From positions 1 to 39,598 of IMG/VR virus record IMGVR_UViG_3300020154_000002: 39,598 nt of DNA, one strand, 5' to 3'. A program made the translations under genes and the position numbers. Below the pieces are notes generated by a model. The model was not told the origin of the DNA, did not search any database, and worked only from the letters and a program-made list of their open reading frames with translations. This document shows, piece after piece, positions 1,310 to 5,523 of the stretch; within the stretch, counting starts at the first letter, position 1, and each line of letters starts with the position of its first letter. The DNA is from a virus.

Positions 1310-1699
1310 TCATTTCCAGCTCCACTTATAGTCAATAAAGATCTCTGTTCTAGCCGATTCCGCATCGTTGTTGACCGGCCACCCGTCACCCCACTGGCTG
1401 TAATGCGCTACTCCATAGCTGAAATTTCCCTTCTGCTTGCCAAGCTCAAACCTGGCCCCAATAGGTGATGACTGGTCTTTCCACTGATAATCCTTCCCCT
1501 CATGGTGTGTAGAAGCCTCGGAGTGCGTTTTGTAGCTAGCCCCAACCTTTAGGTATATCTCATCACACGCCGTCGCCTCGAATCCGGTGAATACTCCAAT
1601 GAAGAACATCAGGACGCATCCGATTGCGGCACCTGGACATCCGCCTTTTCCCATGTATTTACGGTTTGCGGGACGGTAGTATTTAGTTGACCTTTTCAT
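1310..1699 (-). CDS. Exported beta-rich protein, outer-membrane-like
   Basis: A 129-residue protein with a basic N-terminus, a hydrophobic segment at about residues 22-42 that may be a signal or anchor, and a remainder of alternating polar/aromatic strands ending KWSWK. The strands (LKVGASYK, GARFELG, FSYGVAHYSQW, EIFIDYKWSW) look like the small beta-sheet or barrel proteins with terminal aromatic residues found in outer membranes. GAGGGTG precedes the ATG by 6 bases. A leader of about 75 bases separates it from the gene upstream, with a recurring motif at its far end (1764-1784). It is not a recognised virion protein; a role in changing the host surface is inference. Confidence 0.65.
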   Translation of the reverse strand: MKRSTKYYRPANRKYMGKGGCPGAAIGCVLMFFIGVFTGFEATACDEIYLKVGASYKTHSEASTHHEGKDYQWKDQSSPIGARFELGKQKGNFSYGVAHYSQWGDGWPVNNDAESARTEIFIDYKWSWK

Positions 1700-1763
1700 T
1701 TTTCACACCCTCGTTGTTGTTTGTGTGTTTATTATTGTTCTTGTAAGGGTGTTTGGCGAGGAT

Positions 1764-1784
1764 CTTTACTTAACTTAACCTAAG
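1764..1784. promoter_or_regulatory. Recurring intergenic motif, copy 1
   Basis: On the plus strand this reads CTTTACTTAACTTAACC and is close to motifs at 4728-4747, 7285-7305 and, on the other strand, 36521-36540. It resembles two copies of CTTTACNNAA spaced 10 bases apart. It overlaps the 3' end of the 58-residue gene and lies about 65-85 bases before the next downstream gene. It could be a protein-binding site or part of a promoter region. The similarity is seen directly; the role is not known. Confidence 0.4.
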
Positions 1785-1951
1785 TCATTTTTCATTTCAG
1801 AAACTAATTTGTTTAATTCGGGATTGGTCATGCCGGTAACATCAGCGATCATTGCTCCAATATGCTCAGCATCTAGCTTGTAGCTCATGGTTATTTCACC
1901 AATGCACATGTTTTGAATTTCGCATAAAACAGCCAAATATTTATCTTCCAT
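1775..1951 (-). CDS. Small protein, 58 aa
   Basis: A 58-residue protein starting at an ATG (1951) with GGGAG upstream. The start is just 1 base past the stop of the upstream 67-residue gene, so the two are probably coupled. The sequence is mostly helical and acidic with no recognisable domain. It ends in Leu-Gly-stop within the recurring motif CTTTACTTAACTTAACC. Position between small leftward genes supports it as real, but no function can be given. Confidence 0.6.
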   Translation of the reverse strand: MEDKYLAVLCEIQNMCIGEITMSYKLDAEHIGAMIADVTGMTNPELNKLVSEMKNDLG

Positions 1952-2832: not shown

Positions 2833-3073
2833 TTCGCAATCCTCGGTTAAATTCAGCCATTGGATTGCTATTTGGTATTCCTGTCTGTGCGCGGTTTACT
2901 GTGTTTTAAGCGACTAAATACCCGTTCGTGGCACCTTGGGCGGCGGCTAATGCGGAGTTTCACCGTCCACTTGACGTTTATTCACTGAGCTGCGCTTTTT
3001 GATTGCTTTGGCAAAAATGATAAAGGTAGTTATCCGCTAACAGTTCAGCATGGCGAACGCCCACGCGGGGAGT
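2833..3073. other. Gene-free gap before the 85-aa gene
   Basis: A stretch of 241 bases with no open frame longer than about 15 codons that has a ribosome site. I saw no clear -35/-10 pair on the minus strand and no terminator. It follows the 72-residue gene and may carry the untranslated leader of the small-gene group that runs toward the terminase. Confidence 0.5.
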
Positions 3074-3292
3074 TCATCGTTGATACTCATTTGGCCAGTC
3101 AAACGTGCCGTCAGACTTTAAATTGCCTCTTTGCTCGGACTGCATCCAAAACTTTCCCTTGTTGCTATCATCCGGCAGTGACCGCTCCAGCTCTTGCAGC
3201 CACGCCGATTTCTTACGTGCCTTACCCTCTTGCACGCGCTTTGACATTTCAGCTACTGCTCTGTCTCGCCTGTTATCTGGTTGCCATGGCAT
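3074..3292 (-). CDS. Small basic protein, 72 aa
   Basis: A 72-residue protein beginning MPWQPDNRR, with a basic helical middle (about residues 8-35) and a tryptophan-containing C-terminus. A weak AAGAGA lies upstream of the ATG. It follows the tRNA-like element at 3311-3387 by about 20 bases, so its messenger probably carries that element in its 5' part. No family is recognised. Because the ribosome site is weak and the neighbour is noncoding, it is less certain than other small genes here. Confidence 0.45.
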   Translation of the reverse strand: MPWQPDNRRDRAVAEMSKRVQEGKARKKSAWLQELERSLPDDSNKGKFWMQSEQRGNLKSDGTFDWPNEYQR

Positions 3293-3310
3293 GGGATTGG
3301 TCTCTTGAAT

Positions 3311-3387
3311 AGGGGGTGATGGGCTGGACTTTAACCAGCGACCTGCGGTGCGACCACTGCTCTAAGCAATTCTGAGCTACCATCACC
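3311..3387 (-). tRNA. tRNA-derived element with a 3-base anticodon loop
   Basis: Clearly tRNA-shaped on the minus strand. It has an 8-bp perfect acceptor (3380-3387 with 315-322 of the same thousand), a D stem GCTC/GAGC after TAGCTCAG, and a T stem GCTGG/CCAGC. The T loop is TTAAAGT, not the canonical TTCAAGT. The D loop lacks the usual GG, and the T loop lacks its partner C56, so both sides of the tertiary elbow pair are gone. The anticodon arm folds as 5 bp closed by only three bases (CGC, 3350-3352), so no anticodon can be presented. CCA is not encoded. It looks like a tRNA converted to a non-decoding structure. Confidence 0.5.
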
Positions 3388-3517
3388 ATAGTTGCCCGTC
3401 TCTCCGGGCTGTCAAGACTAGCTGCATGTATCCCCACGCTTGCAGGCCTGCTTGTGGGCTTGACCTTCCCATGCTCCGCGTCTTTCCTTCCGTTCTTTTT
3501 GCCATTGCTGGCGAATA

Positions 3518-3590
3518 TGGTGGAGGCGGCTGGATTCGAACCAGCATCTGGCGACATCAACTCCCGACTTAACCTGTAGTCCTCGCCCCC
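3518..3590 (-). tRNA. tRNA-like element with encoded CCA, irregular anticodon arm
   Basis: On the minus strand this is a 73-base tRNA-like fold. It has a 7-bp acceptor (3584-3590 with 3522-3528, one G-T), an encoded CCA (3518-3520), a D stem GACT/AGTC with a GG-containing loop, and a canonical T arm GCTGG-TTCGAAT-CCAGC. The interval for the anticodon arm and variable loop is only 20 bases (3546-3565) instead of 22-23 and does not form a proper 5-bp stem. The best fit has three pairs with two purine mismatches around a loop that would show GAT (isoleucine). It may be a degenerate tRNA or a tRNA mimic within the surrounding structured RNA. Confidence 0.55.
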
Positions 3591-4101
3591 ATATTTGCCG
3601 AGTTACCACCGCGCTCGGCTCGCGGATGTGTGGCAGGCTTTCTCAGGTATCGGGCGATCTCGTTTGCTCCCGATCCGCGTCCACGCGGGCGACCCCGCCT
3701 CGGTTTTAACCTATCCTGCCCCGCCAAGATTCACACATCGAAACGAACACTCCCGGACCGTTGACTAGACTATCCGTTAGCTTGTCAGGCTGGAATGCTC
3801 GTTTCGATGCCCTCTCGCTACATCCGCCCGAGAGGGTAGGCGTTGATGTGATCCCTCTGGCTTTTGAGGGTTGCGATGCAGTCCTGAAGTCAGGAATCGC
3901 GCTATGTATCTGCTCTTGTCTGCTGCTAGTTGCCACCTAGCTAATCACATCGAGATAGCATCTCTGCCTTTTAGTCAGCATTAACTGATTCTGAGGCATC
4001 TCTAAGAACTTTCGATTGCACGCTTTAACCCACATTTATTATCTGTGGGACAACCGCCACAAAGCAAAGATACTATCTCAATGCCGCCTCTTAAATCCGG
4101 G

Positions 4102-4144
4102 GAAGCGGTTCCCGTTACTCTTTGAAGCGCCCCTGTTACTTTTT
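4102..4144 (-). repeat. Imperfect tandem repeat at the 5' side of the structured RNA
   Basis: Two adjacent units of 22 and 21 bases, each starting GAAGCG and containing TTACTCTTT or TTACTTTTT on the plus strand. They lie at the upstream (minus-strand 5') border of the structured region, just after the 65-residue gene. They may represent the start of the RNA or a protein-binding pair. The repeat is visible directly; the role is unknown. Confidence 0.5.
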
Positions 4145-4164
4145 GCACTCGGTTAATGATTGGC

Positions 4165-4362
4165 TTACCTGCTTAATTCGTATCTTTTATGTATAAGCCG
4201 AATAACTTCTTCGCTCAAACGCTTTGATTTCTCAGCATCTTTTATTTCATTCTCAAGATGTTTAATCCTTAATTTTGCGTTATGTATTATAAAGTCTGCC
4301 TGAGAAACTCTAGCTCTTGATTTTAGATATAGCTCCATGCTGTCATCAAGAACCTTAAGCAT
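4165..4362 (-). CDS. Small coiled-coil protein, 65 aa
   Basis: A 65-residue protein, almost entirely predicted helix or coiled coil with regular charged residues (about 15-60). Its start overlaps the end of the upstream 95-residue gene by 8 bases, which supports coupled translation, although the Shine-Dalgarno is weak. It is the last recognisable gene before the structured RNA region. No family is recognised. Confidence 0.55.
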   Translation of the reverse strand: MLKVLDDSMELYLKSRARVSQADFIIHNAKLRIKHLENEIKDAEKSKRLSEEVIRLIHKRYELSR

Positions 4363-4642
4363 ATCTAAATTCTACATATTGAAAACGGTATGCTTGGCGG
4401 GTTCCGCTATGAGTTCCGCGAGATGCCACCAGAGAGCTTTCATTATCAAATCCAAGCTTTACTGTTCTGCCTTGATCTACACTACGAATAGAAAGCGAAT
4501 CAACCATTTCGCACTGCGCCTTAGTTAGAACCAAGTCAACACGAAAACACTTGGATCCTTCATTGTCGAATTTTAGCTTTTCTGTCAAAGGATTGCTTTT
4601 TATTGATTCGATTAAATCTTTAAGGCTCGCTGCATTAATCAT
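4355..4642 (-). CDS. Hypothetical protein, 95 aa
   Basis: A 95-residue protein starting MINAASLKDL. AGGG lies upstream in a 14-base sequence (4643-4656) that is repeated exactly before the gene at 7226. The N-terminal half is helical and the rest looks mixed; the C-terminus is rich in Arg, Tyr and Phe. No family is recognised. It opens a small transcription block after the RuvC-like gene, from which it is separated by a 96-base leader holding a recurring motif. Confidence 0.55.
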   Translation of the reverse strand: MINAASLKDLIESIKSNPLTEKLKFDNEGSKCFRVDLVLTKAQCEMVDSLSIRSVDQGRTVKLGFDNESSLVASRGTHSGTRQAYRFQYVEFRYA

Positions 4643-4747
4643 CTCATAACCCTATCTATTCCGGCTCAGCCCATCGCCTCACCACATGTGTTTAAATATA
4701 CTCGCGTTAATCTGGTTTGTAATGCGTCTTTACATAACTTAACCTAG
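4643..4747 (-). promoter_or_regulatory. Leader with recurring motif (copy 2) before the 95-aa gene
   Basis: A 96-base gap that begins in the 3' end of the RuvC-like gene. The motif CTTTACATAACTTAACC (plus strand, 4728-4747) matches copies at 1764-1784 and 7285-7305. The leader ends with a 14-base sequence CTCATAACCCTATC (4643-4656) repeated exactly at 7222-7235. Finding the same two elements in the same order before two unrelated genes suggests a duplicated promoter or control unit. Confidence 0.45.
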
Positions 4748-5179
4748 CGCTAGATAGCCGAAGTAAGCAGCGCTGCGCGTATCTGCATTCGACTGCTTTG
4801 TCCAGCCAGTAACTTTCTCAAACTGCGCCTTGTTATCCGCCCAGTTGCCCTTCTGTGGCTTATGCAATACGTATGGTATACCGTAATGGTCAAGCCAGCG
4901 CATAAGCTCAACCTGGGCTTGCTGGCATCGCCCTATGTGCATTGCAATCTTGCTTTGATTTGCCGTCGATCCTTTTCGGTTTCTAGCGTATACAAACTGG
5001 TTTGCCATTACGTTTTCGATGCTGAAAATATACTGATCGATACCGAAATTTGATTTTAATATTTTATCAAAAATACCAACCGTATTCATCATTTCGAGAT
5101 AGCACAAAACTCCATCGAAATAATAAGCTACACCGTGCCTTTCTGAATCAGGGTCTATCCCTACAACTATCGTCCGCAC
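4739..5179 (-). CDS. RuvC-like Holliday junction resolvase
   Basis: An RNase H-fold nuclease of the RuvC type that would cut four-way junctions formed during phage recombination and replication, and so clear branched DNA before packaging. Acidic catalytic positions are visible: Asp9 in VVGIDPDSERHG, Glu55 in SIENVMANQ and an Asp near 135 in NADTRSAAY. A GTG start at 5179 is chosen because GGGGA lies seven bases upstream and translation then begins right before the first strand. The longer frame up to 5254 has no ribosome site. The 146-residue product matches phage RuvC-like lengths. It overlaps the Ref-like gene by 13 bases in a nin-like recombination cluster. Confidence 0.85.
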   Translation of the reverse strand: MRTIVVGIDPDSERHGVAYYFDGVLCYLEMMNTVGIFDKILKSNFGIDQYIFSIENVMANQFVYARNRKGSTANQSKIAMHIGRCQQAQVELMRWLDHYGIPYVLHKPQKGNWADNKAQFEKVTGWTKQSNADTRSAAYFGYLALG

Positions 5180-5523
5180 TGCGCTATCCCCGCTATGTAG
5201 TTTGTTGGTAGTTCTAATGGGCAATCCTCGGCCTGTATTAGCCATAGATCGCATTGAGGTCCAAACTGATCTGTAAATGCCCTTCGGCTACCGTTAGTTA
5301 CTATCCCGTCGCAATTAGGGCACAGCCCCAATATGAACAAGTGGCCTATCTGCAACCGCTCACATCCCACCCTAACCTTGAATGTTGAACCCATAGCATG
5401 GTGACAGATTACAAATCCATGAGCACCGCACGCTGCACATATCATCCTATCTTTGATCCAGCCCATATGCTGCTTCTCTAGCGTGTTAGGTCCGCGAGAT
5501 TGACCGGTTGCTCTGCGTTGCAT
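5167..5523 (-). CDS. Ref-like HNH-fold recombination protein
   Basis: A 118-residue protein resembling the Ref / RecA-dependent nuclease family of phage P1 and lambdoid phages. It has a Cys-x-x-Cys pair (CAACG, about residue 32), CHH, a central segment ending in LGLCPNCD, then NGSRRAFTDQFGPQCDLWL, which fits the family's C-terminal pattern. In typical members the second metal motif is LCPxHH and the following Asn is His; here these read NCD and N. The catalytic state is thus uncertain, or this is a divergent subfamily. The ATG at 5523 follows AGGA and overlaps the upstream stop as TGATG. Confidence 0.65.
   Translation of the reverse strand: MQRRATGQSRGPNTLEKQHMGWIKDRMICAACGAHGFVICHHAMGSTFKVRVGCERLQIGHLFILGLCPNCDGIVTNGSRRAFTDQFGPQCDLWLIQAEDCPLELPTNYIAGIAQCGR

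Follow-up and report, generated by a model that had tools for sequence, protein, structure and literature searches.

A phage contig of 39,598 nucleotides (IMG/VR virus record IMGVR_UViG_3300020154_000002; the whole stretch is called the window below) carries between its early and its packaging genes about 830 bases, positions 3311-4144, in which a reading of the sequence alone had proposed a large structured phage RNA with tRNA-like elements on the minus strand. Does this stretch specify an RNA, which part of it folds, and is the RNA of a known kind?

Genome context

The phage contig (39.6 kb) is circularly closed: its first 127 bases are the same as its last 127, and a terminase large subunit gene that spans the contig ends supports the closure. 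This gene (693-1, minus strand) and that of the terminase small subunit (988-665, minus strand) occupy positions 1-988 and start the late packaging genes. Genes for a portal, a major head protein and an endolysin are also present. The terminase is a distant relative of, among others, the terminases of Hamiltonella APSE phages, and its relatives in bacterial records include sequences from Gilvimarinus, Aestuariibacter, Colwellia and Paraglaciecola, so that the sequence relationships make a gammaproteobacterial host likely. The early part is lambdoid, with an HTH protein at the Cro position, an O-like replication protein and a Rha/antirepressor-type protein, as well as a single-strand annealing protein, an exonuclease and a RuvC-like Holliday junction resolvase (4739-5254, minus strand; phrog_1770, E 5e-16) that ends the early, nin-like region. 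The window is most likely a lambdoid podovirus, and the RNA sits at its early/late junction.

The RNA stretch is preceded by the RuvC-like gene and two small ORFs from the ORF list, orf95 (4642-4355) and orf65 (4362-4165), and followed by small genes that lead to the terminase, the first of which is orf72 (3074-3292); all are on the minus strand. Searches of the Pfam and PHROG type gave no significant family for orf95 or orf65 (together 4165-4642), and orf72 had no family match in protein-family searches. Lambdoid phages often carry Q at the site of orf95 and orf65. A candidate sigma-70-type promoter, TTGAGC-17-TATACA (4190-4218, minus strand; 8 of 12 consensus bases), was read by eye upstream of the RNA and is weak since it falls under the promoter-scan threshold; the scan for promoters and terminators found no clear one of either kind bounding the stretch. 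Just downstream of orf72 there is a second stretch of about 240 nt (2833-3073) that has no minus-strand ORF of at least 40 amino acids.

The location, between the nin-like region with RuvC and the packaging genes and with all genes on one strand, is also where a cis-acting leader of the late operon might lie, and no Q-type antiterminator was recognised among the window proteins searched. Such a leader would work in the nascent transcript, through antitermination as in HK022 put, attenuation or RNase III processing, and would have no function as an RNA of its own. This is the main rival explanation, and the evidence that bears on it is given in the sections below.

Coding potential

No coding signal was found, in agreement with the earlier judgement that the stretch holds no credible protein gene. 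On both strands of 3311-4144 the ORFs score -0.09 to -0.41 for codon usage, around or below the shuffled level (-0.16 +/- 0.10), and the confident genes of the same phage score mostly +0.09 to +0.34, with one at -0.06. These ORFs have no Pfam matches and a single PHROG match, which is insignificant. The sole ambiguous case is a 48-amino-acid ORF (4148-4002; codon score -0.09), for which tblastn against phage genomes found no relative. At the 5' edge of the RNA and within this ORF is an imperfect tandem repeat, AGTAACAGGGGCGCTTC / AGTAACGGGAACCGCTTC (4143-4090, minus strand).

A structured core on the minus strand

The body of the stretch (3600-4160) is structured beyond chance and favours one strand: against dinucleotide shuffles, the minus-strand RNA has a folding z of -5.7 and the plus-strand RNA one of -2.6. 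Among 394 minus-strand segments of 200 nt tested across the window, the two most extreme are 3701-3900 and 3901-4100. The core, 4084-3735 (minus strand, approximately 350 nt), is the most structured stretch of the 39.6-kb phage. For comparison, the same method gives a z of -2.0 for the ROOL RNA of Ligilactobacillus salivarius pMP118.

Both of the longest unbroken stems that the minus strand can form anywhere in the window (span about 160 nt) are in the core, at 24 and 19 bp; in eight dinucleotide-Markov sequences used as a null, the longest stems were 14-17 bp. The two stems include eight G-U wobbles and no other departure from perfect pairing, and on the plus strand these positions become A-C mismatches, which indicates the minus-strand RNA as the selected entity.

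The core comprises two domains and two hairpins, all on the minus strand. Domain 1 (3947-4084) is closed by a stem of 19 bp, or 24 bp in its extended form (4084-4061 / 3970-3947), which is the longest minus-strand stem of the window and absorbs a 7-bp stem drawn earlier at 3952/4073. Its multi-branched inner region has arms at 4056-4050/4019-4013, 4049-4044/4034-4029, 4009-4005/3992-3988 and 3987-3984/3979-3976. The domain has a z of -6.9 (4080-3951) and pair probabilities of 0.78-0.99. Domain 2 (3845-3951; z -4.3 for 3952-3844) has an 8-bp closing stem, GATGTGAT/ATCACATC, that encloses three hairpins and an unpaired stretch, and its first five bases compete with the extended, 24-bp form of domain 1. 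Then come a hairpin of 8 bp, CCCTCTCG/CGAGAGGG (3810-3836; z -3.0 for 3837-3809, pair probability 0.96), and a long hairpin (3735-3810; z -7.0, pair probability 1.0) with a stem of 18-19 bp, an inner loop and an upper stem. The long hairpin holds the second-longest minus-strand stem of the window.

Most of the best stems of the sequence-only reading are thus recovered. The 8-bp stems at 3845/3944 and 3810/3829 correspond to domain 2 and the short hairpin, and the 11-bp stem at 3736/3799 extends to the 18-19 bp of the long hairpin. The 7-bp stem at 3621/3673 is unsupported because the segment that contains it, 3600-3734, has a z of +0.9. This segment belongs to a G+C-rich linker (3591-3734, minus strand; z +0.9 for 3734-3600) between the core and tRNA-like element 1 that is locally stable only in its last hairpin, GCCGAG/CTCGGC (3619-3597). 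The 5' flank, 4160-4080, has a z of -1.2. Structure over some 830 bases therefore holds for the core of about 350 nt and fails for 3600-3734 and 4080-4160. The idea of one large RNA keeps its substance, as the region is noncoding, strand-specific and significantly structured, and is better put as two things, a core of about 350 nt and, apart from it, the tRNA-like elements. The core and the elements are candidates for a single functional RNA.

Long inverted repeats also serve as DNA signals, and the long stems could act at the DNA level, in protein binding or as a replication or recombination signal, beside decaying tRNA genes and with no functional RNA. A related phage contig (L148) offers a precedent in a repeat array that folds equally on both strands. 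Here the strands differ (z -5.7 vs -2.6), all eight pairing departures are G-U on the minus strand, and the multi-branched inner structure would be unexpected in a DNA palindrome. The G-U pattern in particular makes the DNA-level role less likely, and we consider it very unlikely overall. Two points also count against the cis-acting leader: the terminator scan places none of the intrinsic kind on the minus strand within the core, and the core far exceeds the known antiterminator RNAs in size.

tRNA-like elements

Two tRNA-like folds had been noticed on the minus strand, and both are confirmed, one by ARAGORN (3518-3590) and both by Infernal scores, although an Rfam run at the default filter missed them. 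They lie 3' of the core and are separated by a weakly structured spacer (3388-3517, minus strand; z -2.1).

Element 1 (3518-3590, minus strand; z -1.0) is called 'tRNA-Ile GAT' by ARAGORN, and its best-scoring family in Infernal is tmRNA, whose cut-off of 47 bits it does not reach with its 34.2. It has a 7-bp acceptor, GGGGGCG/CGCCTCC, with G3:U70, an A73 discriminator and an encoded CCA. The D arm is present, the T arm is canonical, and position 8 is A instead of U8. The anticodon stem has just four positions and is broken by an A-G mismatch. An Aestuariibacter tRNA-Tyr ends in a sequence that matches the last 30 nt of the element at all positions but one. Relative to this tRNA, pair 6-67 is changed on both sides with the acceptor pairing kept, and A3 has become G3, creating G3:U70. 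In whole-length folding, element 1 pairs with the linker in preference to forming the cloverleaf, the difference being about 9 kcal/mol. The competition may be real, or the result may be an artefact of a method that leaves out tertiary contacts.

The 3' half of element 1 resembles an alteromonad tRNA-Tyr, and we considered an attP site in a tRNA 3' end. This was rejected: no tyrosine integrase (PF00589) was found anywhere in the record, and the control genomes were all positive.

Element 2 (3315-3387, minus strand; z -3.8) is scored as tRNA at 42.9 bits, over the cut-off of 29. Its acceptor has G-1:C73, which is of the histidine type, and it has a canonical D stem, A56 in the T loop and no encoded CCA. 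The anticodon arm has 5 bp and a loop of 3 nt.

Neither element has the paired anticodon stem and 7-nt loop of a functional elongator tRNA. Both are unlikely to decode, since the working anticodon arm is lost while the acceptor and T arms are kept. AlaRS and HisRS depend mostly on the acceptor end of the tRNA, and therefore both elements could in principle be charged without decoding.

In another explanation the phage keeps both elements, as degenerate tRNAs that no longer decode, to serve as decoys for host enzymes, either the aminoacyl-tRNA synthetases or defences that cut tRNAs, and the core is a mere carrier. Both elements lack a working anticodon arm and keep acceptor identity (G3:U70 for Ala, G-1:C73 for His), and two odd tRNA-like elements lie next to the RNA ligase gene of a related phage. 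However, two elements are too few to exclude the ordinary decay of phage tRNAs, and the identity argument depends on general knowledge of synthetases; we regard the decoy explanation as unlikely. For a cis-acting leader, the tRNA-like elements would be unnecessary.

Homologues

The BLASTN comparison with related phages that had been suggested as a check produced no homologous region. Among 50,697 phage records there was no homologue of the RNA, just short matches of the tRNA type. The five matches in plasmids are short and weak, with a best E of 5e-3, and each leaves the greater part of the query uncovered. Searches with blastn and nhmmer of the terminase and RuvC relatives, comprising viral contigs and bacterial genome records, also found no homologue, and in approximately 1,150 bacterial genomes the core has short, chance-level matches only. 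Scans of viral contigs for exact 15-mers found GATGTGATTAGCTAG in 14, GGATAGGTTAAAACC in 29 and CGAAAGTTCTTAGAG in 48 stretches, none convincingly similar any further. R2, a covariance model built from the one sequence of domain 1, matches itself only in about 175 sources. Among the collections searched, which may lack near-identical records, the RNA of the window is at present a singleton.

Structured RNAs in related phages

Related phages carry other structured RNAs. The closest terminase relative that includes the upstream region (L084, 73% identity) has a noncoding structured stretch at 1375-1795 (plus strand; z -3.2) with a terminator-like hairpin at its end. The lysis genes follow the stretch directly, and on its other side is a gene that looks NinG-like; this gene and the lysis cassette were both identified by reading the translations.

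In a phage whose RuvC is 63% identical (G003, contig L048), there is an 800-nt noncoding stretch (z -4.9) with a tRNA-like domain at its end. Its core is shared with G011 (L040) and L206, at 75% over 189 nt (alignment A3). We refer to this structured RNA of three phage contigs as family B (L048:6610-7570, plus strand; L040:9450-10210, minus strand; L206:1-600, plus strand). Its members have a common 90-nt core that includes a terminator-like hairpin, and the family is not in Rfam; a family B model (R1) had no match in 369 bacterial genomes. The downstream gene encodes a DNA methylase in L040 and L206 and a SpoU RNA methylase in L048.

Two family B members include a tmRNA-like tRNA domain of 140 nt (L048:7267-7406 and L206:172-308) with a G3:U70 acceptor, a P2-like stem, a T arm and CCA, and with no D stem or anticodon arm. 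Between the two, 4 of 23 pairs are changed on both sides, and the signal is lost when the pairing is slid. These compensatory pairs, from two sequences, are suggestive support for the domain structure. With homologues and compensatory pairs, family B is open to immediate testing.

Two further terminase-related phage contigs have Leu-type tRNA 5' and 3' ends with about 100 nt replacing the anticodon arm (L155:4247-4390 and L108:666-843). Structured RNAs, and tRNA-like elements that lack an anticodon, thus occur repeatedly among phages of this neighbourhood. By the tests made, the RNAs of L084, family B, L155 and L108 are not homologues of the window RNA; homology with family B was considered specifically and rejected, as model R1 gives no support and there is no sequence or covariance-model match.

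Other contigs were also inspected. In L044 (7734-8490), two tRNA-like elements come after an RNA ligase gene. The anticodon of one is odd (ACC), and the acceptor of the other, GGTGGTG/CATCACC, is reminiscent of element 2 of the window. An array of direct and inverted repeats of the TGTGACAGT type lies immediately before the terminase genes of L148 (4649-5443); it was rejected as a structured RNA, since its inverted DNA repeats fold as well on one strand as on the other, and is perhaps a DNA signal. L174 has ordinary tRNAs and is a bacterial contig, and the L207 match is a chance match within a protein gene.

The related RNAs return us to the cis-acting leader. The structured stretch of L084, with its terminal hairpin and its place directly before the lysis genes, is what a leader might look like, and family B cores likewise have a terminator-like hairpin. 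Three things make the cis-acting leader a serious alternative, possible in our estimate though doubtful: its location, the failure to recognise a Q gene, and these terminator-like hairpins in comparable RNAs.

Proposed function

In the explanation that we prefer, and to which we give about an even chance, minus-strand 4084-3735 is the core, of about 350 nt, of a noncoding structured RNA that a lambdoid podovirus encodes between its early and late genes, and the tRNA-like elements govern how the transcript is processed and how stable it is. We predict that the core is transcribed together with the rightward/late operon. RNase P would cut the transcript at the 5' end of element 1 (about 3590/3591), releasing the structured RNA and a separate tRNA-like piece. 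The tRNA-like parts would thereby set processing and stability, as processing sites and as end protection, and the released RNA may act in trans.

This proposal is favoured by the z of -5.7 for the body, by two modules near -7, by the preference for the minus strand, and by G-U pairs as the only departures in both longest stems. The lack of a coding signal, the position of two tRNA-like elements 3' of the core on the same strand and the retained 6-67 pairing are also consistent with it. By analogy, so are the tRNA-coupled structured noncoding RNAs of related phages, with four compensatory pairs between L048 and L206. Counting against it are the lack of a homologue and of a clear bounding promoter or terminator, the unstructured linker, the preference of element 1 for pairing with the linker (about 9 kcal/mol) and the fact that the related-phage RNAs are not homologous. 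We consider the window RNA a good candidate for a new viral RNA.

A more speculative and rather unlikely extension is that some lambdoid and related phages combine a large structured domain with anticodon-less tRNA-like elements that keep an aminoacylation identity (Ala, His and perhaps Leu) independent of the anticodon. Such RNAs may be charged, message-less analogues of tmRNA that act on host translation or on tRNA-targeting defences.

Comparison with known RNAs

The RNA had been likened to GOLLD and ROOL, with membership of such a class or of a new one left open. At gathering level, the Rfam search found no match in the window, and the models for GOLLD, ROOL, HEARO, OLE and introns have no match in 2850-4700 up to E = 10 with lax filters. 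The same tool found the ROOL of Ligilactobacillus salivarius pMP118 at 130.4 bits. As this control works, the RNA is assigned to none of these families.

Of the families compared, tmRNA (RF00023) is the one that element 1 most resembles. The alanine acceptor identity of tmRNA (G3:U70, A73, CCA) is present at 3590-3518, along with a T arm and no working anticodon, and the top Rfam score is for tmRNA. However, the 34.2 bits are less than the cut-off of 47 and reflect the tRNA-like ends only, the element has a D stem, and its 73 nt leave no space for a tag reading frame or pseudoknots. ARAGORN predicts no tmRNA in the window.

The put RNA of HK022 and lambdoid late leaders are examples of structured RNA in a nascent lambdoid transcript; put is much smaller and occurs in early operons. 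The window RNA is like them in being a structured RNA of a lambdoid phage, and a likeness of function would be by analogy.

Family B is similar to the window RNA in that all three members (L048, L040 and L206) are long structured noncoding RNAs, two of which end in an anticodon-less domain with G3:U70 and CCA. It differs in that this domain has 140 nt and no D stem, and family B has no match to the window RNA.

ROOL (RF03087) is phage- or plasmid-borne, often near tRNAs and of similar total length, but its model, which detects a real ROOL in the control, has no match in the window. Like GOLLD, the window RNA is a structured RNA borne by a phage close to tRNAs, with two tRNA-like elements downstream of it on a phage contig, and tRNAs can sit inside a GOLLD linker (PMC12286853). 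It differs from GOLLD in its core of about 350 nt, compared with 800 or more, in the lack of a covariance-model match, and in its tRNA-like elements, which have no working anticodon arms and are 3' of the core. The phage origin, size range and closeness to tRNAs described for GOLLD and ROOL (PMC12286853) would fit a diverged member of either family. Given that neither covariance model matches at E = 10 with lax filters, that a real ROOL scores 130 bits, and that the window elements are degenerate and 3' of the core, we regard such a descent as extremely improbable.

An unrelated structured RNA in a small genome, by chargeable-looking, non-decoding elements, would be a simpler system in which to approach the function of such RNAs. 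GOLLD assembles into a 14-mer nanocage, and to our knowledge neither GOLLD nor ROOL has a known function.
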